From: Archaeoglobaceae archaeon
GTDB taxonomy: Archaea; Halobacteriota; Archaeoglobi; Archaeoglobales; Archaeoglobaceae
Length of the DNA: 55,433 nucleotides
Direction: 5' to 3'
Assembly (NCBI GenBank): GCA_025057895.1
Contig: JANXEF010000007.1
Span: forward strand, 1-55,433
Notes under the pieces: model-generated
What the model was told of the DNA's origin: nothing
What the model saw: only the letters and a program-made list of their open reading frames with translations
Database searches by the model: none
Part shown: in pieces, positions 5,151-19,515 of the stretch
Layout of the letters: the number at the start of each line of letters is the position of its first letter
How positions within the stretch are numbered: position 1 is the stretch's first letter
Program-made: the position numbers and the translations under genes

Positions 5151-5886
5151 AGATCATCCCAGATACGAATCCCTTGTAACGAGGGAAAAGCTAGTTGAAG
5201 GTGTGAAGATGGGTATTACAACATTACAGGGGCTCATAGCACATGGAAGAGGAGAAGCTTTTGATTACATCCTTGGAGAAAAGACTAAAGACTTTGCTCT
5301 AAAAGCAGAAAAAACTGCTGTCGCGATGATGTTGCTCGCAAAACATCCTGTTATTAGCGTAAATGGAAACACAGCAATTCTTGTACCAGATAAAATAAAA
5401 GAGCTTGCAGAAATTTTAAATGCCAAAATTGAGATAAATGTTTTTCACTATAGCAAAGAGAGAGTTGCAAAGATAGCAGAGTTCCTTTCAAACTTTGGAA
5501 TTGATGCTCTCTGTGCTGGTGATTCGGAACTAGAAGGATTGAGTTCAGCAAGGAGAATAGTGGATAGTAGGGGAATTTTGATTGCTGATGTAGTTCTTGT
5601 ACCATTAGAAGATGGAGACAGATGTGAGATTTTGAAAAAAAATGGAAAGAAAGTGATAGCAATCGATCTTAATCCTCTTTCGAGGACTGCGAGAATGGCA
5701 GATGTAACGATTGTAGATAACATAATTAGAGCAATTCCAAAGATGATCGAATTAGCAAAAGAGATGATGAATATGAGCCAGGGGGAAATAGAGGAAATCA
5801 TTAGAACTTACGACAACAAAAAGATATTGAGCGAAGCAATTGATGGTATTATCGGTTACCTTGAAGAAACAAGGAGATCACTTTAA
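5140..5886 (+). CDS. 4-phosphopantoate--beta-alanine ligase (archaeal phosphopantothenate synthetase)
   Basis: Archaeal route to coenzyme A: joins 4-phosphopantoate and beta-alanine with ATP (COG1701). The conserved N-terminus MIPRDHPRYESL...REKLVEG, the HGRGEAFDY block and the late DLNPLSRTARMAD segment identify the family. The ATG at 5140 has GGGTGG just upstream and replaces the GTG three codons earlier. Length 248 aa is typical. CoA supply fits a genome region rich in acyl-CoA enzymes, though this linkage may be chance. The 3' end overlaps the convergent bud32 end by 9 nt. Confidence 0.9.
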   Translation: MIPRDHPRYESLVTREKLVEGVKMGITTLQGLIAHGRGEAFDYILGEKTKDFALKAEKTAVAMMLLAKHPVISVNGNTAILVPDKIKELAEILNAKIEINVFHYSKERVAKIAEFLSNFGIDALCAGDSELEGLSSARRIVDSRGILIADVVLVPLEDGDRCEILKKNGKKVIAIDLNPLSRTARMADVTIVDNIIRAIPKMIELAKEMMNMSQGEIEEIIRTYDNKKILSEAIDGIIGYLEETRRSL

Positions 5887-6453
5887 TCTTCTCTCAACAT
5901 ATCTTCCTCTCTCCTCTATTTCTTCAGCTCTTTTGATAACTTCTTCACTTCCAAGCTCAAGATAGCCTTCGATGAAGGCTTTTTTTAGGTTTTCCCAGTT
6001 TTCAAATCCTGCCTTTAGGGATTCAAAATAAACGTGCACATCAACACCCTTAGCTTCGATTCTGTTATCGATGAAAGCCAAACCAAAATCAACAAAATAG
6101 ATCTTTCCAGCGCTGAGTATCATGTTCATCGGAGTTATATCGCCATGGACAATATTTGCTGAATGAAGCTTTGCGACCATTCTTCCAATTTCTCTGCTTA
6201 TTTCCTCACTCATACACTCTTTCACGGGAATTCCGTAGATTCTCTCCATGACTATGGTGTCTCCTTCGACATCGAGTATTATTGGTGTTGGCACTCCAAC
6301 TTTTCTTGCCATAGAAATCAACTTTGATTCTGTTTTAGTTCTTCTGAATCTAAGTATTTCGTCGATTTCCTTTATTCTGTATCTTTTCGGCTTTCTCTTT
6401 TTGGAGACTATATCTCCAATGATCACTTCTGCCTCTCCTCCGAGATAGATCAC
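5878..6453 (-). CDS. bud32: KEOPS-associated protein kinase Bud32
   Basis: Small atypical kinase/ATPase of the KEOPS complex that makes t6A37 in tRNA together with Kae1. Visible are the N-terminal GGEAEVI strand, KRYR plus EIDEILRFRRTKTES (family signature region), the catalytic loop HGDITPMNMIL, VDFGLAF (DFG equivalent) and the RGRYVERRLK tail typical of Bud32. The longer open frame to 6537 adds a lysine/serine-rich stretch overlapping the next gene, so I start at GTG 6453 (191 aa, the normal length). It is stand-alone; the Kae1 fusion seen in some archaea is not present and kae1 is not in this window. Same-strand neighbour upstream is a hypothetical gene. Confidence 0.9.
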   Translation of the reverse strand: MIYLGGEAEVIIGDIVSKKRKPKRYRIKEIDEILRFRRTKTESKLISMARKVGVPTPIILDVEGDTIVMERIYGIPVKECMSEEISREIGRMVAKLHSANIVHGDITPMNMILSAGKIYFVDFGLAFIDNRIEAKGVDVHVYFESLKAGFENWENLKKAFIEGYLELGSEEVIKRAEEIEERGRYVERRLK

Positions 6454-6499
6454 AATACAAAGTTCTCTACGTCTTTTAAAATTTTCAGATTTTGATGTA

Positions 6500-6829
6500 C
6501 TAGAATTTTTTGAAGAGAATTTCAAGAGCTTCTTCAAGTACTTTTCTATCTAGATCTCTGCTAATTCTGAGAAATTTCCCATCTAATGCCAAGAAACCTT
6601 TTTCGAATCTAATAGCTTTTTTAAATGGATAAATCTTACACTGTTTTCCGAGTCTTTTCAACTCCTCGAATTTTTCCACCGGAATTTCAGACTCCAGTCT
6701 TAAAGTGAAGGAAAGATCATCCCCAACTGCAATCACGTTCTCGATTTTTTGAAGCTCACTCTGCAACTCCCATGGTTTCCAATTCTTGGATTTTGCAACT
6801 TCGTAACATCTTATTATTCTTTCTTTGAT
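6500..6829 (-). CDS. hypothetical protein with uncertain, possibly non-canonical start
   Basis: I do not recognise this alpha/beta protein. The only canonical start is a TTG at 6766 (88 aa), yet the frame stays open upstream to just inside the sirtuin gene and reads like normal coding sequence (KERIIRCYEVAKSKNWKPWE). It contains no ATG, GTG or TTG there. A strong GAGGTG ribosome site (6835-6840) precedes an ATC at 6829, so an AUC start giving 109 aa and overlapping the sirtuin stop by 16 nt is possible, as is an unrecognised sequencing error. The C-terminal half is LRLESEIPVEKFEELK followed by a basic strand and a helical end. It lies between sirtuin and bud32 on the same strand. Confidence 0.55.
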   Translation of the reverse strand: MKERIIRCYEVAKSKNWKPWELQSELQKIENVIAVGDDLSFTLRLESEIPVEKFEELKRLGKQCKIYPFKKAIRFEKGFLALDGKFLRISRDLDRKVLEEALEILFKKF

Positions 6830-7590
6830 CTTTTCACCTCTTCAGCAATTTTTGGTAAGATTTCACCAACCCTTCCTTTTATAATGTAATCCGAAACTCC
6901 TTCGAAAGTAAGTGTTGTCTCTTCGAGATTTATTTCTATAACCTTTGCTCCATATCTCTTTGCAATTCTAGGCAACTCTGCTGCAGGGTAAACTACTGCA
7001 GAAGTGCCGCAGACTAACATCAAATCGCACCTCATAACTTCATTAAAACTTCTTATGTATATATCTGGGGGAATCGGTTCATTGAAATGAACAACGTCGA
7101 GTTTCAGAAAGTTCTCACATATTTTGCATTTTGGTACTCTTCCAGATTCAATTAAATTTATAAATTCTTTTTTATCAAATCTACTACCACAGCAAATACA
7201 GCGAAGTTTTGATACACTACCATGAAACTCAATCACATTTTTGCTACCAGCTTTGTGATGTAAACCATCAATGTTCTGTGTTATTATACACATTATTTTC
7301 CCCAATTCTTCGAGCTCTGAAAGAGCTCTATGAGCGGAATTGGGTAAAGCCTTGTCGATAATCGGATAAATAGTGGACTTTTGTACTTCTATCCAGTATT
7401 CTCTAGGATCTTTCAGGAATTTGGTGTAGACTTTGTAAGCTCTTCTCTCAGCTTCTGGATCTCTTTTCCAAATTCCAAAAGGTCCACGAAAATCTGGAAT
7501 TCCTGACTCAGTTGAAATTCCAGCACCAGTAAAAGCTATAGCGTATTTCGACTCTAAAAGATCTCTTGCAACCTTTTTAATGAGTTCCAT
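6814..7590 (-). CDS. cobB: SIR2-family NAD-dependent protein deacylase
   Basis: Removes acetyl or other acyl groups from lysines using NAD. The NAD loop GAGISTESGIPDFRG (about 22-36), TQNIDGLHHKAG, catalytic H123 (EFHGS), a zinc site with C131/C134 and C155/C158, and GTSAVVYPA are all intact. I start at ATG 7590 (258 aa) instead of the TTG 15 nt upstream, since a TATA box (TTTAAATA, reverse of 7612-7619) lies about 25 nt before it. Possible roles are deacetylation of Alba or of acyl-CoA synthetases such as the one at 13.3 kb, whose PKTRSGKIMRR lysine is a known type of sirtuin target; that link is inference. Confidence 0.93.
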   Translation of the reverse strand: MELIKKVARDLLESKYAIAFTGAGISTESGIPDFRGPFGIWKRDPEAERRAYKVYTKFLKDPREYWIEVQKSTIYPIIDKALPNSAHRALSELEELGKIMCIITQNIDGLHHKAGSKNVIEFHGSVSKLRCICCGSRFDKKEFINLIESGRVPKCKICENFLKLDVVHFNEPIPPDIYIRSFNEVMRCDLMLVCGTSAVVYPAAELPRIAKRYGAKVIEINLEETTLTFEGVSDYIIKGRVGEILPKIAEEVKRSKKE

Positions 7591-7610
7591 ATAAAATATG
7601 GGCAAAACAT

Positions 7611-7620
7611 TTATTTAAAC
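7611..7620. promoter_or_regulatory. TATA element between divergent sirtuin and pus10
   Basis: TTATTTAAAC lies about 25 nt from the sirtuin ATG (7590, minus) and about 21 nt from the pus10 ATG (7637, plus). It fits a leaderless promoter for the sirtuin and may also serve pus10, though the plus-strand spacing is a little short. Confidence 0.5.
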
Positions 7621-7636
7621 AATTCTTTCTTTTACA

Positions 7637-8704
7637 ATGCTCTGTGAGATCTGCAACGAAAAGCTACGCTGGGGAAAAGGTGAAAATTGTGTTATTTGTT
7701 GTAATTTCTTTGATAGAGCTGATGATTTGGCTTTTGAAATATTTAAAAATCTTGATTTTGAGTTCAATAGTTTCAACGTGGCTATAAGGAATGAAGGGAG
7801 CTTTAGAGCTCTTCAGGAATTTTTTGAAGGTAAATTTGATTACGATTTGAAGATAGAAATTAAAAGAGTTTTACAAAAAAAAATCGGAGATCTGACTCAA
7901 AGGGAGATATCTCATGAGCCTGACGTGCTCATAACTTTCAGTCCGGAGGATTTCACTTTCAGAGTTGAAATAAAACCTTTGTTTTTATATGGAAGATATA
8001 TAAAGAGAGTCCGTAATATTTCTCAAACGAGGTGGCTTTGCGGTTTCTGTAAAGGTTTTGGATGCGAAATCTGTAACTTTAGCGGAAAGAGATTTGCCAC
8101 ATCTGTGGAAGAGTTGATATCCATTCCTGTAATCAGACTTTTCAATGCAAAAAATGCACTTCTTCACGGCGCTGGGAGAGAAGATGTCGATGCTAGAATG
8201 CTTGGAAATGGAAGACCTTTTGTTTTAGAAATAGTTGAACCTAAGAAAAGGAAATTAGATATTTTTGAGGTTGAAAGAGCGATCAACGAATTTTGCGGAG
8301 GTAGAGTAGAAGTAAAAAGCCTAAGATTTGCAACTTTACGCGATGTTGAAATTGTTAAGAAAGAGAGGTTCAGAAAAATATATCGTGCTAAAGTAGTTTT
8401 TGATAGAATAATAAGTAGAGAAGAGCTTGAAATTGCTCTAAAAAGAATAGTTGGAGAAATCAAGCAGAGAACCCCAAAGAGAGTTCTTCATAGAAGGGCA
8501 GATGTATTTAGATTAAGAAAAGTTTATAGAGCAGAGATTTTAGAACATTTTGGAAAAATCGCAGTTTTGAAATTCGAGACAGATGCGGGACTTTATGTTA
8601 AGGAACTCGTCAGTGGAGATGAAGGCAGAACAGAACCAAATCTCTCTAAAAAATTTAAAGCCTATGTTGAGAAATTGGATGTTTTGGAAGTCATAGAGAA
8701 CTAA
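7637..8704 (+). CDS. pus10: tRNA pseudouridine synthase Pus10
   Basis: Makes pseudouridine 54 and 55 in archaeal tRNA. The N-terminus carries zinc cysteines (C3, C6, then the C18-C22 cluster). A second cysteine group at C135, C138, C143 and C146 lies in the middle, and the catalytic motif GREDVDAR (about 180-187, D185 the likely catalytic Asp) follows. The conserved C-terminal ETDAGLYVKELVSGDEGRT block is complete. Length 355 aa is within the archaeal range. It diverges from the sirtuin gene and ends only a few nt from the convergent 5S rRNA gene. Confidence 0.95.
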   Translation: MLCEICNEKLRWGKGENCVICCNFFDRADDLAFEIFKNLDFEFNSFNVAIRNEGSFRALQEFFEGKFDYDLKIEIKRVLQKKIGDLTQREISHEPDVLITFSPEDFTFRVEIKPLFLYGRYIKRVRNISQTRWLCGFCKGFGCEICNFSGKRFATSVEELISIPVIRLFNAKNALLHGAGREDVDARMLGNGRPFVLEIVEPKKRKLDIFEVERAINEFCGGRVEVKSLRFATLRDVEIVKKERFRKIYRAKVVFDRIISREELEIALKRIVGEIKQRTPKRVLHRRADVFRLRKVYRAEILEHFGKIAVLKFETDAGLYVKELVSGDEGRTEPNLSKKFKAYVEKLDVLEVIEN

Positions 8705-8707
8705 TAA

Positions 8708-8830
8708 TACCGACAGTTTCCGCGTTTCCCGGGACCTTTCGGAACCCAGTACAACGCGGAACGAAACGGGGCTTAACTTCCGGGTTCGGAATGAGTCCGG
8801 GTGTTTCCCCCGTTTCTATGACCGTCGGCA
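8708..8830 (-). rRNA. rrf: 5S ribosomal RNA
   Basis: The reverse strand reads TGCCGACGGTCATAG... with the universal blocks ACACCCGGACTCATTCCGAA and CCGGAAGTTAAGCC. The 5' and 3' ends pair (UGCCGACGGU with ACUGUCGGUA), giving 123 nt. No 16S or 23S gene is in the window, so 5S is unlinked, as in several euryarchaea. A TATA box (CCTTAAATATC) lies just upstream. Confidence 0.97.
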
Positions 8831-8899: not shown

Positions 8900-9487
8900 T
8901 TATATAATTGGTTGTTCTGGTTCATTTAAAAAATTGAACAACTTATCAACAGTGTTAACTCCGATTTTGAGCACTTTCAAAAGTTGCAATTGGAAAATCT
9001 GTGCACTGATAAATGCATCTGCAAGTGCATTGTGCCTATATGGTGTCTTTAACTCATATTTTTTTGCAAGAGAATCAAGATCTGGTGAAACTATATATTT
9101 TTCTCCAATATATCTGCTTAGAACTCTATCTATCTTCATGATGTCAATGGTTTTTGTTTCGAGTTCTTTTAGGACAGATTTCAGAAATCTATAGTCCAAC
9201 TCTACACAAAAACCAACAATTATACTTTCTTTAAGTAAATCATAAACTTTTGGAGATATCTCGTCAAAACTCGGTGCTCTCTCTAGATCCTTGCTGCTTA
9301 TCCCGTGAATTTTAAGCCCTTTTACATCAAAACTTTTTGATTTTACCAAGGAATAAAATGATTTGCTCGAGAGTATCTTCAAACCCTCCATTGGGACTAC
9401 TCCAATCGCTATTATTTCATCCTTATAGGGATTGAATCCTGTTGTTTCCAAATCAACAGAAGCAAACTTGGCTTCGTTGAGATTCAT
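8900..9487 (-). CDS. DEDD-family 3'-5' exonuclease (DnaQ-like)
   Basis: A 195-aa stand-alone exonuclease of the DnaQ/epsilon type. ExoI is DLETTG (about residues 12-17), ExoII is ELDYRFL, and ExoIII is HNALADA, which has the His of the DEDDh subgroup. The start overlaps the stop of the upstream cNMP/CBS/DUF294 gene by 4 nt, so the two are coupled. I recall the same pairing next to acetate-permease genes in proteobacteria, which suggests a role with that signalling protein rather than in replication. The actual substrate (DNA, RNA or a small oligonucleotide) is unknown. Confidence 0.88.
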   Translation of the reverse strand: MNLNEAKFASVDLETTGFNPYKDEIIAIGVVPMEGLKILSSKSFYSLVKSKSFDVKGLKIHGISSKDLERAPSFDEISPKVYDLLKESIIVGFCVELDYRFLKSVLKELETKTIDIMKIDRVLSRYIGEKYIVSPDLDSLAKKYELKTPYRHNALADAFISAQIFQLQLLKVLKIGVNTVDKLFNFLNEPEQPII

Positions 9488-11256
9488 ACTCCACTCTCCA
9501 CGAAGAATCTCCCTTTTAGAAACTTTTCATAATCCTGAACAATTCTGAAAGCATCTTTCAAAATGAAGTGGTTTATTCGACCGATTTCTTTGAGCTTAAC
9601 AAGATTGCCCTTCCCTTCAACCTGATTCCTGAGCCTCAAATTTTGTAAGAACTCATAGCTTTCCAGAATACTCTTCGAGTAGTTTTCACTTAGAACACCA
9701 AGTTCAGTCAATTTTAGAATTCTTTCTCTTGTATTCATGATCTCTTGTATACTATTTTCCAGAGCGAGCACTCGAGTGCAGTTCACTATAGGGTATATAC
9801 CAAATTTCTTTATGTCTACTTCACTTACTCCTCTTATTCCTCCCACTTTCGGAGGTTCTAACATGACAGCATCGTTTGCGAGATATCTAAGAACTTGTGC
9901 ATTTATTTTATTACTTATAAAATTCAATAGTTCATCAAGCAAATCTTTTTTACCATGAATTGCTCTTAAATCTAGAAATACAGTTAGATACCTTATGTTC
10001 TCTGGAGTAAACTTGTTCATCCATTCTTCGAACTTTTTCTTCCACTCTTCAATACTCATGCACCAATTCATTGCCATGTAACCACCGCTACACTTTGGGA
10101 TTCCAACGAATTCGAGTGTATTGTTAACTATTTTTGCAAACTCTCTCAACTTATCTCCTTCTCCACTATGGATTATCATGTTATCTTGATCTGTCGCAAG
10201 TATCTGTTCCTTTCTTGCAGAACTTCCCATATTAACCCATACATAATCTACGATTTTTCCAAGTTCACTCTGATTTTCTCTTTCAACAATCGTTATTACC
10301 TTCTCTGTAAGCAGATCATAAAAGCTTGAAATTAGGAATGAAAGTTCATAGAAACTCATTCCCCTTTTTGCAAGGGCTCTTATCGTTTCTATAATTCTTT
10401 TGTTTATTGATTTCACTTCTTCTAGATTCGTGGCTCTGCCAAGTTTTCTGTGTAAGATAGAAACTGAAGTGAAAGGCTCGAATTGGGACATTATATCCTT
10501 AGCCGAAATGACACCATGGAGTTTTCCATATTTCGTCACGACGATATGGTTTATTCTCTTTGAAGTTAAGAGCTGATAAGCTTCAAAGAGTGGGCGATCA
10601 AACTCTATGTACAGAACTGGACTACTCATGTAAGCAGAAACTTTCTCTTCTTTACTTGTTCCATGTATAACGAATTTTCTGAGATCTCTATTCGTAAATA
10701 TTCCAATTGGAGTCATGTCGTTCTTGACTACAACTATTGAACCAACTCCATTCAATTCCATCTTCACTGCGGCATCTCTTATAGTAGTATAAATATCACA
10801 AAATACTGGATTTTTTGTAATGCAATCAGCCACTTTTCTCAAAAGTGCATCACTGAACTCTTGTCCTTCTAAGAGCGAAATCAAACCTCTAAAATCCTTA
10901 CTTGCTATTTTTTCAAAAAATTCACGAAAATTTTTGTTTTCAGACGAAATTTTGTCTATTACATCACGTTTTATAGTGAAACAAATTACATCTGAATTTG
11001 CGATTGCTTTCGATTTTCCGTAGATGCCCAATCCAAAGATGTCTCCCCTCTCGAATTCTTCGAGCAATTCTTCATCCCTATAGAGACAAACGTTACCGGA
11101 GAAAACTATATAGAGTTTTTTTGGAGAATTGGAAAAGATCAACTCACCCTCTTCAAATGCTTCGACGTCGATTTTAGTAGCAATAGTGTTTAATTCCTCT
11201 TCCGTTAGGAGATCGAAAGGCTTTATTCTCCTTATGAATTCTCTTGGAGGTAACAT
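9484..11256 (-). CDS. cNMP-binding/CBS/DUF294 putative nucleotidyltransferase signalling protein
   Basis: A 590-aa cytoplasmic multidomain protein of the COG2905 type. Domains in order: cyclic-nucleotide-binding fold (about 15-115; ...EEGELIFSN...GDIFGLG), a pair of CBS domains (about 130-265), a GlnD-like nucleotidyltransferase domain DUF294 with the motif GSSARKEQILATDQDN (about 340-355), and a C-terminal DUF294_C helical domain. The architecture suggests sensing of nucleotide or energy state with possible nucleotidyl transfer to a partner. It diverges from the symporter/acyl-CoA synthetase operon and is coupled to the exonuclease gene. By context it probably controls carboxylate uptake or activation; the mechanism is unknown. 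Confidence 0.88.
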   Translation of the reverse strand: MLPPREFIRRIKPFDLLTEEELNTIATKIDVEAFEEGELIFSNSPKKLYIVFSGNVCLYRDEELLEEFERGDIFGLGIYGKSKAIANSDVICFTIKRDVIDKISSENKNFREFFEKIASKDFRGLISLLEGQEFSDALLRKVADCITKNPVFCDIYTTIRDAAVKMELNGVGSIVVVKNDMTPIGIFTNRDLRKFVIHGTSKEEKVSAYMSSPVLYIEFDRPLFEAYQLLTSKRINHIVVTKYGKLHGVISAKDIMSQFEPFTSVSILHRKLGRATNLEEVKSINKRIIETIRALAKRGMSFYELSFLISSFYDLLTEKVITIVERENQSELGKIVDYVWVNMGSSARKEQILATDQDNMIIHSGEGDKLREFAKIVNNTLEFVGIPKCSGGYMAMNWCMSIEEWKKKFEEWMNKFTPENIRYLTVFLDLRAIHGKKDLLDELLNFISNKINAQVLRYLANDAVMLEPPKVGGIRGVSEVDIKKFGIYPIVNCTRVLALENSIQEIMNTRERILKLTELGVLSENYSKSILESYEFLQNLRLRNQVEGKGNLVKLKEIGRINHFILKDAFRIVQDYEKFLKGRFFVESGV

Positions 11257-11328
11257 TAATTCATGAGTAAATCAATGTAATTTTAAAATTTTCTTCTCTC
11301 ACTATCATGAATGGTAAAATTAGAAAAA

Positions 11329-11366
11329 TTTAAATAGTGAGAAATAAAGTGATTATTGGTGATGGG
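11329..11366 (+). promoter_or_regulatory. promoter and short leader of the symporter operon
   Basis: TTTAAATA at 11329-11336 is followed by GTGATT (11349-11354) and the ribosome site GGTGATGG (11358-11365), one base before the ATG at 11367. Nearly the same arrangement precedes the thiolase operon at 23436-23473. Confidence 0.6.
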
Positions 11367-11600
11367 ATGCCTTGGCCACCTAAGGTGTTTTGGGTAGGGT
11401 TGTTGTTGATATATGGCACTGCAGTTCTTGGTTGGTTGATGGAAGCGACTATTAGAATGAACAAGATACCAACCGCAGCAATCTGGTATACAGCGATATG
11501 GGGAACTTTCTTGCTTCCTGTGATAGTCTCGGTATTGTACTTCTACTTCCCAGAGAAGGCTGACGAGAAGAGAGCAAAAGAGAAAAAGGAGGTGAAGTGA
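11367..11600 (+). CDS. two-TM small subunit-like protein of the SSS symporter
   Basis: A 77-aa protein with two membrane segments (about 8-25 and 38-58) and a charged C-terminal tail ending KEKKEVK. It sits immediately before the symporter with adjoining stop and start, the arrangement typical of small accessory subunits (DUF485 or DUF4212 types) of monocarboxylate sodium symporters. I cannot assign it confidently to either family. The ATG at 11367 has a GGTGATGG site; an in-frame GTG 30 nt upstream would fall on the TATA box and is rejected. Confidence 0.75.
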   Translation: MPWPPKVFWVGLLLIYGTAVLGWLMEATIRMNKIPTAAIWYTAIWGTFLLPVIVSVLYFYFPEKADEKRAKEKKEVK

Positions 11601-13214
11601 ATGGCTGGAAGTGTTGACCCAATAGTTATAATTATTGTAGCCATATATCTGATTGCAGTCGTCGTAATAGGTTACTATTCCCGAGTTAGGTTGAAGAGTG
11701 CGATGGATTACTATGTTGCAGGAAGAAGGCTCGGTAGTATTGTAAACGGACTTGCTTTGGAGTCCACATATCTCAGTCCTGCTTCGATGCTCGGTTTACC
11801 AGCTTTCATATTCTTGTTGGGTTATCCATTCTGGTGGGCAATGGTTGCTATTATATGCGGAATGCCACTTGCAACTTTGTTAACAGCATCGGCTTTGAGA
11901 AAATATGCTCCAGTTAGCTTTGCAGATTACTACGCAGATCGTTATGGTGATGAAAGGCTAAGATGGTGGATAGGAATAATTGTGATCGTTGGTACGATTC
12001 TATACATAACGCTTTCGCTGGTAGGCATGGCCCTCTTCATGGTTGCAATTCTTAAAATGCCATACTTCATCGCGTTGGTTATAGGAACAATTATTACAAT
12101 GTTCTACGTCGTCTATGGAGGAATGATCGCTACTAGCTGGAATGCAGCGATGCAGGCATTGGTTATGAGCTTTGCTGCAATCATTGCAGCGATAGCGATT
12201 GTTTGGCAGCTTGGAGGTCTTGAAGGTGTTTATATAGCAGCTGAGAAATCATATGCAAGGATATGGAACAGTCCAGCAAATGCTCCAGAAGTTTCGCATA
12301 TTTTCACTGGAACTTGGATTGGTGTTATTGGCTGGTACTTTGTATGGCATCTTGGTTTTGCTACCATGCCCTATACAGTCGTTCGATTCTTCACAGTCAT
12401 GGACATCAAGACTGCAAGGAGAAGCATCTTTTGGTGCGCGTTGATTGCAGGCGCGTTCTATGTTTCACTGCAGTTGATTGGTATAACTGCAAAGTACATG
12501 ATTGAAAAGAGTCACCCAATTGCAGTTGCAGCTGGAGGGAACATGAGCGCTACAGCAGTTCTAGCATCGATTCAAAGGACTTATGGTATAGGTACTGTTA
12601 CAGATTACTCGATGATAGCAGCAGTCGAAGCTCTTGGCAATCCAGTCATCCTTGGCATTTTGTGCGCAGGCGGATTAGCAATTGCGATGTCTACAGCAGC
12701 TGGATGGGCAGTCGTGGTTAACACAGTTATTGCGAGAGATTGGATGGTAAAGCTTTTGAAGTCAAAGAAGGCTGAAGAGAAACCAATTCTTTACGGAAGA
12801 ATTGTGGCTTTCATATTCCTGTTGATCAGCTTCATCATTGCAATTCAGCCTCCAGCACTCGTCCTTGACTTGAGCGGTTGGGCTTTCATAGTCATAATTT
12901 GCTCCATAGGTCCTGGTTTGATTCTTGGACTCTGGTGGAAGAGGGCTACAAAAGCTGCAATGTGGTTTACAGCGATAGTGATGTTCGTTGTCAGCATGAT
13001 CGCATGGATGAGAGCATACTTCATTCTTGGTCACCATGCGAGGTTCTTCCTAAACGATATAATCTTTGGAAATCCCAATGCTTTGATCACACCGCATCAA
13101 ATTTGGACAGTTCCCTTGGGCTTCATATTATTCATAATAGTCTCACTGTTGACGAAGCCTCCTGAGGAGGAGAGAGTGCAGAAATACTGTGTAGAACTTA
13201 CGAAGGAAGTTTAA
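11601..13214 (+). CDS. sodium:solute symporter (SSS family), probably monocarboxylate
   Basis: A 537-aa integral membrane protein with about 13-14 hydrophobic segments. The family start ...VIGYYSRVRLKSAMDYYVAGRR is characteristic of SSS carriers (DYYVAGR motif), and ESTYLSPASMLGLP follows in the first core helix region. The context (2-TM small protein before, acyl-CoA synthetase after, DUF294 protein opposite) matches acetate/propionate-type permeases such as ActP, so it probably takes up a short carboxylate with sodium. Substrate specificity cannot be read from sequence. The 79 nt after it hold a second AT-rich promoter-like stretch before the synthetase gene. Confidence 0.9.
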   Translation: MAGSVDPIVIIIVAIYLIAVVVIGYYSRVRLKSAMDYYVAGRRLGSIVNGLALESTYLSPASMLGLPAFIFLLGYPFWWAMVAIICGMPLATLLTASALRKYAPVSFADYYADRYGDERLRWWIGIIVIVGTILYITLSLVGMALFMVAILKMPYFIALVIGTIITMFYVVYGGMIATSWNAAMQALVMSFAAIIAAIAIVWQLGGLEGVYIAAEKSYARIWNSPANAPEVSHIFTGTWIGVIGWYFVWHLGFATMPYTVVRFFTVMDIKTARRSIFWCALIAGAFYVSLQLIGITAKYMIEKSHPIAVAAGGNMSATAVLASIQRTYGIGTVTDYSMIAAVEALGNPVILGILCAGGLAIAMSTAAGWAVVVNTVIARDWMVKLLKSKKAEEKPILYGRIVAFIFLLISFIIAIQPPALVLDLSGWAFIVIICSIGPGLILGLWWKRATKAAMWFTAIVMFVVSMIAWMRAYFILGHHARFFLNDIIFGNPNALITPHQIWTVPLGFILFIIVSLLTKPPEEERVQKYCVELTKEV

Positions 13215-13293
13215 AAAAACAAATAGAAAAATTTTGAAAAAAGTTGAATTGAATTTAAAATTTTTTTAAATATTTTTGAAGAGGTGGTTTTGT

Positions 13294-15213
13294 ATGGAAA
13301 GTTTTAGAAAACTTTGGAAGACTGAAAAAGAAAGTCCCGAAAAATTTTGGAATGAACATGCTGAAAAGGCAATGGAAGATATTTATTGGTTCAAAAAATG
13401 GGACAAGGTTTTTGAGTGGAATTATCCAAGATTTGGATGGTTCTTAGGTGGAAAAACGAATATAGCTTACAACTGTCTCGATTACAAAGTTAGGAAGTTT
13501 TCATCTAAACCAGCTTACATCTATGAAAATCCCGAGCTTGATTTAAGTTACTCAGTCACTTATTCCCAGCTTTTTAGCATCGTAAAGAAGTTTGCATCTG
13601 CATTACGTGGATTTGGAGTTGGAAAAGGAGACAGAGTACTTCTTTATCTCCCAAATTCAATAGAGGCAGCAGCTATGCTTTTAGCTTGTGCAAGAATCGG
13701 AGCGATTTCAGTTACAGTCTTTGCAGGATTTTCACCAAGAGCAGTTGCAGATAGAATTGAATTGACAACACCGAGATTGATATTTACTCAAGATTTTGCT
13801 TCAAGGAGAGGAAAAATTGTACGACTCAAGGAGAACGTTGACAACGCACTCAATTTAGTACCTGAGATAGGAGAAAAAGTAAAAGTTGTCGTAAAGCGAG
13901 CTATGCCAGAGATCGAGATTGAACTGACAGATAGAGATTTACTTCTTAAGGATTTCCTTAAAATTGGAAAGGGTGAAAGTAGTGATTATGTAGAAATGGA
14001 TGCTATGGATCCTATTTTTGTAATGCCAACTTCTGGAACCACTGCAAAACCAAAACCAGTTGTTCATGTTCAGGGAGGATATCAGCTTTGGAACTACTGG
14101 TCATCTAAGTGGATCTATGGATTGAATGAAAATGATATAATCTTTAACACCTCTGATATAGGTTGGATTGTTGGGCAGAGCTACATGATCTTCGGTCCCC
14201 TGCTTGCAGGAGCAACTTGTATCCTCTACGATGGAACTCCCGATTATCCTGAGCCTAAAGTATGGTGGGAAGCAGTTGAGAGAAATAGAGCAACTCTTAT
14301 CTGGACTTCTCCAACTGGAGCTAGAATTCTTCGAAAGATCGGAGCTGATAAAGCAAAGGAGCATGATATAAGCTCCGTTCAGCGGGTGGTTTGTGCTGGA
14401 GAAGTTTTGAACCCAGAAGTATGGTTATGGCTCTACAGAGATGTTTTTGAGGAAAAAATTCCTGTAATAGATCATATGTGGCAAACAGAAACCACAGGAG
14501 CTATCTTTGGTTACCCATATGGGTTGCTTGGAAATGAAGTGAAAAAATTCATAAAGCCCGGATCTGCAGGATTACCTTTACCTGGAATCGATCCAGTTTT
14601 GATTGATGAAACTGGAAAAGAACTAAAAACGAACGAGAAAGGTATTCTGTATCTTAGAAAACCCTTCCCAGGATTGACCCCTACTCTTTGGGATAGCTTT
14701 GATAGATATGTACGTTCATATTGGGAGGTTGGTATACCAAAGCTTTATTGCACAGGTGATGCGGCTTTTGTAGATTCAGATGGCTATGTTTGGTTTACAG
14801 GCAGGGCAGACGAGGTTATAAAGATAGCAGGACATAGAATTGGAACTATAGAAGTTGAAAACGCAATTGTTAGTCATCCTGCAGTAGCAGAAGCAGGAGT
14901 TTGTGGAGTCCCGGATGAAATTCGTGGAGAAGTTGCAGCTGCTTTCGTAGTTCTTAAACAGGGAATTTCACCAAGTGAAGAACTTAAGAAGAGCATTCTT
15001 GAACATGTTAGGAAAACTTTTGGTCCGATAGTCGTCTTTAAAGACATTCAGTTTGTGAACATGTTACCCAAAACTAGGAGCGGAAAAATAATGCGTAGGG
15101 TAATGAAAAGACTCTTTCTTGGGCAAGAGCTTGGTGATCTCTCCACAATAGAAGAGGAGGCTTCAGTAGTTGAAATAAGAGAAGCTGTTGAAAAGCTAAG
15201 GAGAGTTGTATGA
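13294..15213 (+). CDS. AMP-forming acyl-CoA synthetase (acetyl/propionyl-CoA synthetase-like)
   Basis: Activates a carboxylate with ATP and CoA, giving AMP and PPi. It has the Acs-type N-terminus (EHAEKAMEDIYWFKKWDKVF), the P-loop TSGTTAKPKPVVH, the substrate-pocket region WQTETTGAIFG, TGDAAFVDSDGYVWFTGR, and the catalytic-lysine tail PKTRSGKIMRR. The start at ATG 13294 has GAGGTGG 6 nt upstream; an in-frame codon 18 nt earlier is rejected. Length 639 aa is normal. WQTETTG in place of the WQTETGG of acetate enzymes hints that the preferred acid may not be acetate. The C-terminal lysine is of the kind acetylated in Acs and reversed by sirtuins. It overlaps the DUF169 gene by 4 nt. Confidence 0.92.
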   Translation: MESFRKLWKTEKESPEKFWNEHAEKAMEDIYWFKKWDKVFEWNYPRFGWFLGGKTNIAYNCLDYKVRKFSSKPAYIYENPELDLSYSVTYSQLFSIVKKFASALRGFGVGKGDRVLLYLPNSIEAAAMLLACARIGAISVTVFAGFSPRAVADRIELTTPRLIFTQDFASRRGKIVRLKENVDNALNLVPEIGEKVKVVVKRAMPEIEIELTDRDLLLKDFLKIGKGESSDYVEMDAMDPIFVMPTSGTTAKPKPVVHVQGGYQLWNYWSSKWIYGLNENDIIFNTSDIGWIVGQSYMIFGPLLAGATCILYDGTPDYPEPKVWWEAVERNRATLIWTSPTGARILRKIGADKAKEHDISSVQRVVCAGEVLNPEVWLWLYRDVFEEKIPVIDHMWQTETTGAIFGYPYGLLGNEVKKFIKPGSAGLPLPGIDPVLIDETGKELKTNEKGILYLRKPFPGLTPTLWDSFDRYVRSYWEVGIPKLYCTGDAAFVDSDGYVWFTGRADEVIKIAGHRIGTIEVENAIVSHPAVAEAGVCGVPDEIRGEVAAAFVVLKQGISPSEELKKSILEHVRKTFGPIVVFKDIQFVNMLPKTRSGKIMRRVMKRLFLGQELGDLSTIEEEASVVEIREAVEKLRRVV

Positions 15214-15962
15214 AACCAAGAGAACTTGCAAACGTGATCGATAAGTTCATTCATCCACAAACTTTTCCTCTCTCCTTCAAATTCGGAGATGACGAGAAAG
15301 CAAGGAAACTAAAGGATCTCGCAATCTGTCAAGTATACAACATCTCCCGTAGATATGGTTGGTTTTTAAAGTTTGACATAGAAACGACTTGTCCCCTTGG
15401 AATAATTGCTTATGGCTTTGCTGAACCAGATGAGACTTATAGAGCGGGGAAGTTAGCTTATGAAGCTGGTTATGCTATAGATGAAGAGATTGGAAAGAGA
15501 TTCGAAGAAGTTGTACCAAGAGTCACAGGTTACAAATCTTGTCTCGTTGCACCGCTTGAAAGGGAAGATTTTATTGCAGATCCAGACTTCGTAGTTGTCT
15601 ATGCAACACCAGCACAAATTTTACGCTTTGTTCATGCCTATCTTTATAACAAAGGTGGAAAAGTTGAAACATCTATTCTAGGCAGAGGAGCATGTGCAGA
15701 GTTTCTCGAAGCTTTCATTCACAAAAGGCTAAAGATCGTGATTCCATGTTATGGGGATCGTATTTTTGGTTTAACCCAAGATCATGAAATGGCTGTTGCT
15801 TTTCCATTCGAAATTGCAGATGAAATTGCAAGAGGTTTAGAAGAAACACACAAACGCGGAATTCGATATCCAATTCCGAACACTGCGTTGCGAATTCCTT
15901 TACCAATGATCGATAGTTATAAAAAATCAGTTGAAGCTATGCGAAAGTCTTGCAAGAGCTAG
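15210..15962 (+). CDS. DUF169 family protein
   Basis: A 250-aa soluble protein that I place in DUF169 (COG2043) from its overall pattern: KPRELANVIDKFIHPQTFP, a central CPLGIIAYGFAEPDE block, VYATPAQILRFVHAYLY and GRGACAEF. No reaction is established that I can name; conserved Cys residues (in TTCPLG, GACAEF and IPCYGD) might bind a metal or cofactor. It is translationally coupled (ATGA overlap) to the acyl-CoA synthetase, suggesting a role in the same pathway. Its 3' end overlaps the convergent ADP-forming synthetase gene by 36 nt. Confidence 0.8.
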   Translation: MKPRELANVIDKFIHPQTFPLSFKFGDDEKARKLKDLAICQVYNISRRYGWFLKFDIETTCPLGIIAYGFAEPDETYRAGKLAYEAGYAIDEEIGKRFEEVVPRVTGYKSCLVAPLEREDFIADPDFVVVYATPAQILRFVHAYLYNKGGKVETSILGRGACAEFLEAFIHKRLKIVIPCYGDRIFGLTQDHEMAVAFPFEIADEIARGLEETHKRGIRYPIPNTALRIPLPMIDSYKKSVEAMRKSCKS

Positions 15963-17867
15963 AGAAGCTCTTTCAATGGAATCAAAGAGAATACAATTTA
16001 GTTTTTTCTTCTTTTTTTCGAAATCTTCTTTCTCCGATATGTAAACAACAATTTCATCTTTGAAAAGTTCATTCATCACTTCTTCAGGGATTACCCAGCT
16101 TGGAGGAGCCACAGCATAACAAAAAACAACTACATCGACTTTTTTGTCATTTTTGAGTAATTCTAAAATTTTCTTTAGCTTTGGGATCTCTAGACCGCTA
16201 AAAGATAAATCCAAAGGGTTCTCTCTTAGTGTTAGAGGTGGAAGAATCTTTTTAAGCTCTTCTATTGTTTTATCACTAAGTTCTATGATTTTTCCCCCAT
16301 TCTTCTCAAGTAGATCTGCAAAAACGATCCCGAGGCCAGCTTGTATCGTTACTATTGCAACATTGCGAACTCTTCCAAATTTCTCGAGTAAAATAGCTAT
16401 ATCAATCAACTCGGTTGGAGATTCAGCAACAATTGCTCCTGCTTGTTTTAATGCAGAGGTAAAAATCTTATAATCTCCTGCAATACTCCCAGTGTGGCTT
16501 AAAGAAGCTTTGTCTGCAACCCTACTTCTCCCAGCTTTCATCACAACTGCAAATTTTCCAGAACTTGTGATCTTTTTTAATTCTTCGAAGAAAGCTCTTC
16601 CATTCTCGAGTCCTTCCACATAAACTGTAACTACTCTTGTCTTCTCATCTTTGGACAAAAATTCAAAAACATCTGGAAAATCAATGTCACAACGGTTTCC
16701 AAGGTGAATTATGTAGCTGAAACCAACGTCATTGAACTTATGGAGTACATAATGACAGATTCCACCGCTTTGTGAAACAAGAGCAATTTTTCCAGGTTTC
16801 AACTTATTGAACTCTGGTGTAAAACTTGCGTTTATGCGTTGTAAAACGTTCACAAATCCAAAAACGTTTGGACCTATTATTCTAATTTTTTCACTCATTT
16901 CCATTAATTTCTTTTCTCTTTCCTTTCCCTCCTCTACTTCTGCTTCCTTAAATCCAGCTGAAACTATCAGAACTTCCTTGGCTTTTCCAATTAGATTTTC
17001 TACAGTCTCAACTACTTTCTCAGCAGGCAAAGCGATTATCGCAAGATCGATTTCTGGTAACTCTTTCAAGGATTTAAAAACCTTAAAACCATCGATTTCA
17101 TATAGAGCAGGATTAACTGGATAGATTTCAATACTTCTATTTGTCTTTAAACTTTGAAGAATTGCATAGCCTACTTTTATTGGATTGTTCGAAGCTCCTA
17201 TCACAGCAACTTTTTTAGGATTGAAAATTGGAGATTTTGTTTTTCTTTCAAAGTTTCTTCTTTTTCCTATTACTATCCTGGCATCGGCGACAGCATAACC
17301 ATTTTCATAAACAAAAACTGGATTAAGGTCCATTTCTAAAATGTTTTCTTTTTCAACTATCTCACTCACTTTGAGTGCTAATTCAATTATTGCTTTCTTG
17401 TCAAATCTCTTCCCGCGATAATCAAATATATCTTTTGAAATTAACTCTTCAAGCATAGATTCCACGTCTTTTCTGGATACTGGAACCAGACGAATGCTAT
17501 AATCTTTTAAAGCTTCGAGAAAGAAACCACCAAGGCCAATGGCTAAAAAGCTTCCAAACTGGACATCTTCAGCAATTCCAATGAAGATTTCGAGTCCTCT
17601 TTCGAGCATTGGTTGAACGTTGATACCTTCTACAAATTCAATAGAAATCAGATCTCTGAAATTCTTTAAAGCTTCTTCTTCAGATTTTACAAATCTTACT
17701 CCTCCAACCTCACTCTTATGTACTATTCTACGAGATGCCACCTTTAAAACAGCTGGAAAACCAACTAACTTTAAAGCATCGAGTAACTCTTTTTCATTCT
17801 TAACAAAAACACAGCTTGCAGTTCTTATGCCATAACTTTCCAGCAAAGCTTTTGATTCATGCTCCAT
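15927..17867 (-). CDS. ADP-forming acyl-CoA synthetase, fused with beta domain first
   Basis: Interconverts acyl-CoA, ADP and Pi with free acid, ATP and CoA. The N-terminal part is an ATP-grasp beta domain (ALLESYGI..., VLKVASRRIVHKSEVGGVRF, EMDLNPVFVYENGYAVADAR). It is followed by a CoA-binding Rossmann domain (KVAVIGASNNPIKVGY) and ligase domains with SQSGGI and the phospho-histidine loop SLSHTGSIAG. Most fused ACDs carry alpha before beta, so this is the reversed order. I start at ATG 17867, 7 nt after the mutase stop; an earlier in-frame start at 17924 would overlap the mutase gene. As last gene of the methylmalonyl-CoA operon it likely converts succinyl-CoA or propionyl-CoA to acid with ATP gain. 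Confidence 0.87.
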   Translation of the reverse strand: MEHESKALLESYGIRTASCVFVKNEKELLDALKLVGFPAVLKVASRRIVHKSEVGGVRFVKSEEEALKNFRDLISIEFVEGINVQPMLERGLEIFIGIAEDVQFGSFLAIGLGGFFLEALKDYSIRLVPVSRKDVESMLEELISKDIFDYRGKRFDKKAIIELALKVSEIVEKENILEMDLNPVFVYENGYAVADARIVIGKRRNFERKTKSPIFNPKKVAVIGASNNPIKVGYAILQSLKTNRSIEIYPVNPALYEIDGFKVFKSLKELPEIDLAIIALPAEKVVETVENLIGKAKEVLIVSAGFKEAEVEEGKEREKKLMEMSEKIRIIGPNVFGFVNVLQRINASFTPEFNKLKPGKIALVSQSGGICHYVLHKFNDVGFSYIIHLGNRCDIDFPDVFEFLSKDEKTRVVTVYVEGLENGRAFFEELKKITSSGKFAVVMKAGRSRVADKASLSHTGSIAGDYKIFTSALKQAGAIVAESPTELIDIAILLEKFGRVRNVAIVTIQAGLGIVFADLLEKNGGKIIELSDKTIEELKKILPPLTLRENPLDLSFSGLEIPKLKKILELLKNDKKVDVVVFCYAVAPPSWVIPEEVMNELFKDEIVVYISEKEDFEKKKKKLNCILFDSIERASLALARLSHSFN

Positions 17868-17874
17868 TAAAAAT

Positions 17875-19515
17875 TTAGAATATCTCTGGAGCTCTGAACT
17901 CTCCAAATACTTCTCTGAGAGCATCTGCTATTTCACCAAGCGTTGCTTTTCCTCTAACACAATCAAAGACATAGGGCATTAAATTACCATCGGTTTCAGC
18001 AACTTTTTTCAGCTTTTCCAGAGTTTTTTCTACATTTGTTTTGTCTCTATTTTCTTTGAACTTCTTCACCCTTGTCACCTGTTTCTCAACTATCTCCTTT
18101 GGAACTTTGAGGAGCTCCATGTGTATATCTTCTTCAATCTGGTATTTGTTAACTCCAACTACCGTCATTTCTCCGTTTTCAATTGCTTTCTGTTTTTCGT
18201 AAGCAGACTTCTGAATTTCTCTTTGCACAAAGCCACCCTCGATCGCTTTGATCATACCTCCCATTTCATCTATTTTCTCAATGTATTTCATTGCCTCCTC
18301 TTCTATTTTGTCAGTAAGCCATTCCAAATAGTATCCTCCTCCGAGAGGGTCGATGACATCAGCAACACCGAGTTCTTCTGCAATGATCTGTTGTGTCCTC
18401 AAAGCAATGCGAACAGCTTTCTCAGTTGGTAAGCATAGAGCTTCATCGAAGCTATTTGTGTGCAAACTCTGACAACCTCCAAGCACAGCTGCTAGAGCCT
18501 GCATCGCAACGCGAATTATGTTGAGCTCGGGCTGTTGCGCTGTGAGAGTGCAACCAGCAGTTTGCACATGGAAACGGAGCATCATCGACTGAGGTTTCTT
18601 TGCATTGAATCTTTCCTTCATAATCTTTGCCCACAATCTACGAGCAGCTCTGAATTTGGCGACTTCTTCTAGGAGATTGTTACCGGCAGAGAAAAAGAAG
18701 CTTAGCTGTGGAGCAAAATCGTCAACGTTTATTCCTCGTTCAAGCACTTTTTCAACATAAGTTATTCCATCTGCAAGTGTGAAAGCAACTTCTTGCACTG
18801 GAGTAGCACCAGCTTCTTCCATATGATATCCCGAAATGCTTATTGAATTCCAGTTTGGCATTTCTTTTGCACAAAAAACAATTATATCAGTTGCAAGTCT
18901 TAGAGAAGGTTCAGGCGGATATATATAAGTCCCTCTTGCAATGTATTCTTTTAACATGTCATTCTGTACAGTTCCACGAAGCTCAGCTATACTAGCTCCT
19001 TGCGATTGGGCAACTATTGCATACATGGCAAGAATTTGAGCACAGGTTGAATTGATCGTCATCGAAGTTGATACCTTTGCCAGAGGAATGCCATCAAAAA
19101 GAGTTTGCATATCTTCTATTGTCGATATTGCAACACCTACCTTTCCAACCTCTCCAAGAGCCATGATATGGTCGCTGTCGTATCCAATCTGTGTTGGTAA
19201 ATCAAAGGCTACACTTAGACCAGTTTGTCCCTGGGAAAGTAGGAACTTATATCTTTTGTTTGTCTCCTCTGCAGTTCCAAAACCAGCGTATTGGCGCATT
19301 GTCCAAAACCTACCACGATACATTGTCGGATAAATTCCGCGGGTAAAGGGATAAACACCAGGAAAGCCTAGTTTTGAATATTCTATACTCACATTTTCTG
19401 GAGTGTAAAGACGATCTACAACAAATCCAGAGCTGACTTTGAACTCTTTCTTTCTTTCCGGAGCTTTTTTAACGAAAGGTTCAACGATTTTTTCTTCCCA
19501 ATCTTTTTTATTCAT
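17875..19515 (-). CDS. mcmA1: methylmalonyl-CoA mutase, large (catalytic) subunit
   Basis: TIM-barrel subunit of adenosylcobalamin-dependent methylmalonyl-CoA mutase, which rearranges R-methylmalonyl-CoA to succinyl-CoA. Landmarks are [20 protein letters not shown] near the N-terminus, [55 protein letters not shown] and [16 protein letters not shown]. At 546 aa it lacks the B12-binding domain, which is encoded separately at 21999-22409, the split form found in archaea. It lies 4 nt downstream of the biotin carrier gene. No MeaB-type GTPase chaperone is in the window. Confidence 0.97.

Follow-up and report, generated by a model that had tools for sequence, protein, structure and literature searches.

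Within a 55,433-nucleotide stretch of DNA from an archaeon of the Archaeoglobaceae (contig JANXEF010000007.1 of assembly GCA_025057895.1; hereafter the window), two overlapping genes on the minus strand appear to form the two arms of one module that would set nutrient, and here carboxylate, uptake. One encodes a 590-amino acid (aa) protein with cNMP-like, CBS-CBS, DUF294, and DUF294_C domains (NT; 9484..11256), the proposed sensor and writer, and the other a 195-aa DEDDh 3′-5′ exonuclease of the RNase_T/DnaQ fold (exo; 8900..9487; PF00929, E = 6.6e-23), the proposed eraser. We tentatively suggest, at a confidence slightly below even, that nucleotidylylation by NT is reversed by the DEDDh nuclease and that the cycle acts as a switch on the uptake system. 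The case for the NT-exo module itself, and for its link to uptake, is strong: conserved active sites, co-inheritance, coupling, gene fusion, fusion to sensor domains, and co-occurrence with a symporter are all observed directly. An earlier reading of the letters alone (the original prediction) had described a DUF294 nucleotidyltransferase coupled to an exonuclease and facing a divergent symporter/acyl-CoA synthetase operon; the gene set is as described there, and all of its coordinates were confirmed. The source is a 1.01-Mb archaeal metagenome-assembled genome (MAG), 79% complete, and its closest named relative is an Archaeoglobales MAG whose NT is 76% identical to that of the window.

A pair was scored when exo lay ≤400 bp from NT on the same strand, and exo genes were detected by scanning all reading frames, since calling only the longest open reading frame (ORF) misses them in high-GC genomes. 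All 11 full-length loci of the Archaeoglobaceae are paired. Among 80 relatives from public genomes, 67 are paired, 5 more have exo elsewhere in the locus, and 8 lack it, two of these at contig ends. This set was recruited by the peptide EQxxxTDQDN, so that conservation of those residues in it is partly by construction, and we therefore used NT loci drawn by profile for the conservation and pairing counts. Here, 69 of 100 loci are paired and a further 20 carry exo elsewhere in the locus; additional sets gave 29/30, 22/30, 9/11, and 23/26. By record title, the paired loci belong to Pseudomonadota, Campylobacterota, Aquificota, Nitrospirota, Bacteroidota, Bacillota, Chloroflexota, Acidobacteriota, Armatimonadota, Verrucomicrobiota, Desulfobacterota, Myxococcota, and Archaea, or about 12 phyla in all, and the frequency of the pair in the genomes sampled is ~36% in Pseudomonadota, 30% in Bacteroidota, 16% in one Firmicutes phylum, and 7% in Chloroflexota. 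The claim that the neighbourhood is kept across domains is borne out, and its opposite, an absence of conservation outside close relatives, is clearly not what we found. The commonest spacing is the 4-nt overlap seen in the window (34 of the 59 closely spaced downstream pairs that were counted in loci L062-L141), where the NT stop and exo start share an ATGA (9484..9487, minus strand), consistent with translational coupling.

Within the Archaeoglobaceae, NT is present in 24 of 40 genomes, exo in the identical 24, and neither in the remaining 16 (Fisher p = 1.6e-11, relatedness ignored). The distances between NT sequences and those between exo sequences are strongly correlated (Mantel r = 0.92, uncorrected for the species phylogeny), and at the level of sequence this shows co-inheritance. 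Beyond the family, the sampled phylum has hardly any NT, which suggests that the Archaeoglobaceae gained it laterally. The window-type symporter is found in 18 of the 40 genomes, all 18 of them NT-positive. In three genomes the symporter lies away from NT (1.4 Mb in G1023, ~14 kb in G1001, and ~19 kb in G002), and the association is therefore more than adjacency. The bacterial genomes tested contain only 2-7 DEDDh matches each, which, together with recurrence in about 12 phyla, puts chance adjacency well under 1%; all DEDDh matches of the seven archaeal genomes inspected are partners of DUF294 genes, arguing that exo is not a stray repair gene. An exonuclease of DNA repair placed beside an unrelated CBS protein by chance, hitchhiking, or operon inertia would suit the DnaQ/PolC/DinG-like sequence of exo. 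Given the cross-phylum adjacency, the identical set of 24 genomes, the fusions described below, and the archaeal DEDDh matches, however, this reading is already contradicted, and we regard it as very improbable.

NT passes the membership test of the DUF294 pol-β nucleotidyltransferases, with a family match (PF03445; residues 287-418, 10003..10398; E = 2.8e-34, 118 bits against a cut-off of 21), the GSX10DXD motif (G344, S345, D356, Q, and D358; 10183..10227), and the third catalytic aspartate (D429; 9970-9972). In the 100 profile-drawn homologs, G344, S345, R348, and D356 are invariant, while Asp is kept at position 358 in 97 and at position 429 in 98. Three proteins carry D358N instead (loci L233, L235, and L236); they are probably one clade, and no exo was detected near them. 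The genes in L235 and L236 adjoin gamma-glutamyltranspeptidase genes. Upstream of the catalytic domain lies a CBS pair (about residues 140-258, 10483..10839; two CBS domains, 3.8e-22), in which the [ST]xxD residues are largely kept (T188, 94%; D191, 91%; D254, 82%); this motif is typical of adenosine ligands. The N-terminal cNMP_binding-like domain (residues 33-105, 10942..11160) scores 25.8 bits, under the cut-off of 27.5, and a simple regular expression found the canonical cAMP phosphate-binding cassette in none of 101 sequences; NT hence fails the criteria for a cAMP-binding protein, and cAMP is an unlikely ligand. The proposal that NT senses nucleotides is in keeping with its CBS pair and is weaker for its cNMP domain. 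The C-terminal DUF294_C (residues 455-584, 9505..9894; PF10335, E = 1e-24) is a helical domain related to HEPN, a clan assignment taken from PMC3710099.

No solved structure matched NT in sequence searches, and the fold search with an AF2 model (pLDDT 88, pTM 0.78) did yield matches. The top PDB entries are both halves of GlnE and DrrA, followed by CBS and cNMP domains. The original prediction had suggested that a nucleotide or oligonucleotide signal is made and degraded at this locus. That both active sites are kept, and that some genomes fuse the two proteins into one, makes it probable that something nucleotide-based is produced and undone; what found no support is the freedom of the signal, since the closest folds, GlnE and DrrA, are protein AMPylators that act on a tyrosine and make a covalent protein tag more likely. 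A free messenger, with uptake gated by a small (oligo)nucleotide that NT would make and exo would degrade as oligoribonuclease (Orn) does pGpG, nevertheless has some attractions: phosphodiesters are substrates of both enzymes, Orn and REXO2 are among the structural matches of exo, and the sensor domains found on NT and exo recall the logic of GGDEF/EAL proteins. We consider it unlikely, because cGAS and other CD-NTases are absent from the top PDB matches listed for NT, no conserved receptor gene was seen across loci, NT has no PADLOC match, and DUF294_C groups with the substrate-binding helical domains of protein and antibiotic nucleotidyltransferases (PMC3710099).

The exonuclease passes PF00929 membership with 82.5 bits (cut-off 24), and its catalytic residues D12, E14, D98, H152, and D157 are kept in 31-33 of 33 homologs. 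Among 89 profile-drawn exo sequences, 88 keep the DE and HD residues, and the position of D98 is Asp in 68. At that position, Glu replaces the third catalytic Asp in 19 of the 89, a proteobacterial group (loci L244-L290) of otherwise intact DEEHD enzymes. The AF2 model of exo (pLDDT 94) is closest in fold to DinG, DnaQ, and PolC, and then to Orn, REXO2, and RNase T.

The pair has been encountered before in Pseudomonas, as pp_0354-pp_0353 of P. putida, PA3233-PA3232, and, for NT, Pflu5625 of P. fluorescens, in the CrbS/R (= MxtR/ErdR) regulon and adjoining actP/yjcH or glcB (PMC9927547, PMC9765439, PMC5715377). PA3232-PA3235 are induced together on propionate (PMC9765439), and the study of Pflu5625 cited a prediction that such proteins work by nucleotidylation (PMC5715377). 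The window differs in being archaeal, in having no CrbS/R beside the pair, and in its symporter, which is only distantly related to ActP. In P. putida, where the pair belongs to the MxtR/ErdR regulon, deletion of pp_0353 (exo) impairs growth on pyruvate, deletion of pp_0354 (NT) does not, and deletion of actP-I resembles that of exo (PMC9927547). This asymmetry is expected if NT inhibits uptake and exo relieves the inhibition. The authors of that study proposed that exo acts in mRNA decay (PMC9927547), and a broader version, in which NT tails and exo trims the 3′ ends of mRNA or tRNA of the uptake and assimilation pathway, would agree with RNA 3′ ends being common DEDDh substrates and with the modification of tRNA by MenT-type nucleotidyltransferases. 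Yet the folds nearest to NT are GlnE and DrrA, and not CCA or poly(A) polymerases, the fusions to CBS, sCache, and PAS domains and the transporter linkage better fit post-translational control, and the phenotype belongs to the exo deletion alone; on balance, control of RNA ends seems to us unlikely.

Gene fusions join the two activities to each other and to sensors. Five genomes (loci L299 and L372-L375) encode exo-CBS-CBS-DUF294-DUF294_C as a single ORF (Pfam confirms the domains of L299 and L373), and three of the five genes are beside DUF4212 and a VC_2705-type symporter. In Bacteroidota, NT makes up the C terminus of a longer protein, a predicted receptor that also contains sCache_2, PAS, and CBS domains (L370 at 5619-8519, and L376); by profile, the proteins of L369 and L371 match it in length and arrangement. 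The receptor genes of L370 and L371 adjoin DUF485 and ActP, while that of L376 adjoins an SSF gene; we predict from this architecture a type of transmembrane receptor with a nucleotidyltransferase output. PAS domains occur on exo in L060, L119, L386, and L380. At L060, in Paracoccus pantotrophus, genes for NT, an SSF-HisKA kinase, a response regulator, and PAS-exo follow one another, with a single small gene as the only interruption. Since sensor domains are fused to NT and to exo alike, both enzymes occupy positions of signalling output. The view that the locus is regulatory is supported. At a second kind of archaeal locus (L043:6979-10580, and L044-L046), the functions are split between a CBS-DUF294 protein with an intact active site and a cNMP-CBS protein whose nucleotidyltransferase domain has decayed and lost its DxD; in L043, exo is coupled to the latter. 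These loci adjoin a VC_2705-type symporter and, where it was called, DUF4212; a DUF1646 gene is present at L043 in addition.

The fusion of NT to exo, their close coupling, and the HEPN relationship of DUF294_C would also be in keeping with a closed circuit, in which NT modifies or inhibits exo or its own DUF294_C after the manner of a toxin and antitoxin (the MntA/HepT logic), with exo as the effector and only an indirect link to uptake. We think this improbable: the NT deletion is viable and free of phenotype, unlike that of an antitoxin, no tyrosine is conserved in DUF294_C, and the symporter accompanies the pair even when unadjacent. The RX4HXY motif is absent from the DUF294_C sequence of the window. 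No anti-phage defence model of PADLOC matches NT or the symporter, and exo matches only DEDDh/exonuclease models. We rejected defence, toxin-antitoxin, and DNA-repair readings of the locus on this silence of PADLOC, the viable NT deletion, and the cross-phylum pairing and fusions.

The defining architectures of GlnE, GlnD, and MntA are all absent from the window, and control of the GlnE type is the nearest in working. GlnE is the best structural match of NT and regulates by protein nucleotidylylation with writer and eraser activities, but it has two nucleotidyltransferase domains, one of them the eraser, is regulated by PII, and has no CBS or cNMP domain, whereas NT has one such domain and a DEDDh exonuclease in place of the second activity. 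As in the GlnD/PII/AmtB system, a nucleotidyltransferase domain would control a transport system; GlnD, however, has an HD domain as eraser, ACT domains, and a PII relay, and NT is without HD or ACT and its locus without PII. With MntA/HepT the window shares the exact GSX10DXD spacing and a HEPN-related partner domain, and MntA places three AMPs, joined by 3′-5′ bonds, on a tyrosine (PMC7641770). It differs in having no HEPN RNase gene bearing RX4HXY, in an exonuclease as partner, and in not behaving as a toxin-antitoxin system. The closest parallel for the eraser is RNase Z, which deAMPylates SelO substrates and so demonstrates that a nuclease can reverse protein AMPylation (PMC12663964), albeit as an endonuclease of the metallo-β-lactamase fold and not a DEDDh enzyme.

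In the mechanism that we favour, an adenosine nucleotide would be sensed by the CBS pair, possibly with a contribution from the cNMP-like domain; AMP, which the acyl-CoA synthetase encoded next door releases, is a natural candidate. The pol-β-fold DUF294 domain would then move a nucleoside monophosphate (NMP), probably AMP, onto a Tyr, Ser, or Thr hydroxyl in a partner protein, as GlnE and MntA do, and the tag would hold uptake down, as active site, fold, and genetics suggest. Exo would take the tag off: the phosphodiester of Tyr-NMP resembles p-nitrophenyl-TMP, a mimic that is hydrolysed by DnaQ ε according to a reference in PMC4822814, and an MntA-like 3′-5′ oligo-AMP tag would be an ordinary exonuclease substrate. 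The most likely target would be the symporter or its small subunit, with the acyl-CoA synthetase and exo itself as alternatives, a choice we make with little confidence. It is from the lines of evidence above that we infer the activities of NT and exo, the inhibitory direction of the tag, its nucleotide, and its target. The presence of the D358N proteins among those lacking exo was counted in favour of a writer and an eraser.

Several observations weigh against such a cycle. Eleven of the 100 sampled NT genes have no exo nearby (some lie at contig ends), and their loci contain no common substitute, the neighbours being as unrelated as PEPCK, BipA, YidC, acyl-CoA dehydrogenase, and gamma-glutamyltranspeptidase. 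The nearest structural matches of exo are ordinary DNA exonucleases. RNase T, also a DEDDh enzyme, failed to deAMPylate SelO substrates (PMC12663964), so that the fold as such does not confer eraser activity. Pseudomonad deletion mutants have mild phenotypes, with little or no effect on growth on acetate from the loss of Pflu5625 or of either P. putida gene (PMC5715377, PMC9927547). Lastly, the transporters linked to the pair are unrelated (two kinds of SSF, AmtB, and perhaps BCCT, SulP, and MFS), which is hard to reconcile with a single conserved target site. On AmtB, for which PMC3412718 is our only source, several Bacillales group amtB with dnaQ and a DUF294 gene, glnK being absent from most of the species listed (Table 1 of that paper), which argues for one module serving different transporters. 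The pair also occurs in polysaccharide and sugar loci (a GH43 arabinan cluster; kdgR), on plasmids of Hymenobacter (L056) and Vibrio tritonius (L059), and is not, therefore, confined to carboxylate transport.

More doubtful than the switch at this locus is its generalization, that DUF294 and DEDDh proteins constitute a widespread and undescribed class of prokaryotic signalling, with sensor-gated NMP or oligo-NMP tags on transport proteins, DEDDh nucleases as a new class of dedicated de-nucleotidylylases, and transmembrane sCache-PAS-CBS-nucleotidyltransferase receptors that detect small carboxylates and write directly. If the proposed switch is real, a widespread gene pair would be a signalling system whose biochemistry is as yet undescribed. 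Some exonucleases annotated as “DNA polymerase III epsilon-like” would then be erasers of a regulatory tag, and would join RNase Z as a second example of a nuclease working on modified protein. The switch would also account for the unexplained exo and actP phenotypes of P. putida, and tie nucleotide sensing to the control of acetate, pyruvate, and propionate uptake in bacteria and archaea. Our literature search, which covered few subscription papers, found no account of the pair and its mechanism across phyla, of the fused and receptor forms, or of exo as an eraser; the parts and some operons were already known. The earlier statement that no mechanism was known is nearly right, with the qualification that PMC9927547, PMC5715377, PMC3412718, and PMC9765439 hold relevant data.

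The operon facing the pair begins on the plus strand, across a divergent intergenic region of 110 bp (11257..11366). Its symporter (SSF, sodium:solute; 11601..13214; PF00474, E = 2.4e-49) had been called a carboxylate symporter: the family is right and the substrate is likely a carboxylate, but membership failed for the best NCBIfam, TIGR03648 (VC_2705; 186.8 bits, cut-off 320.75), and for ActP (TIGR02711; 115.3 bits, cut-off 1099). By sequence it is a distant relative of both families. Ahead of it is a 77-aa protein with two transmembrane segments (11367..11600), with homologs at the equivalent place in archaeal relatives, no Pfam match, and a start, MPWPPK, that is invariant in seven homologs; it is apparently a small symporter subunit, taking the position of DUF4212 or DUF485. 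In DUF4212, DUF485, and this archaeal subunit, a conserved tyrosine is found close to where the chain leaves the membrane, ahead of the charged tail. It may be a tag site or just an interfacial residue, and interfacial tyrosines are common.

The next gene encodes an AMP-forming acetyl/acyl-CoA synthetase (13294..15213, plus strand; the ORF spans 13276-15213, with 13294 the likely start), which scores 663.6 bits with NF001208 (cut-off 657) and 651.8 with the equivalog TIGR02188, whose cut-off of 724.95 is not reached. It may be specific for short-chain acyl groups. A DUF169 gene (15210..15962, plus strand; PF02596, E = 4.4e-45) overlaps its end, and beyond the symporter operon are an ADP-forming acyl-CoA ligase, a methylmalonyl-CoA mutase, and a decarboxylase/carboxylase set, neighbours that indicate a setting of short-chain acid metabolism. 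The stretch 15210-19515, with DUF169, the ligase, and the mutase, suggests metabolism of the propionate type.

Three minor observations concern the surroundings of these genes here and elsewhere. An archaeal gene (L049:7179-8984) fuses a xylose-isomerase-like TIM barrel (PF01261) to DUF294-DUF294_C, with no exo nearby. A family of probable membrane proteins of ~173 aa, with no Pfam match (L054:7802-8320, L277:8871-9392, and 10 other loci), recurs in alpha- and gammaproteobacterial loci with genes for NT, exo, and the DUF4212/VC_2705 symporter. In the window, a 5S rRNA gene (8708-8829, minus strand; Rfam RF00001, 90.7 bits) lies directly past the end of exo, on the same strand as the pair.

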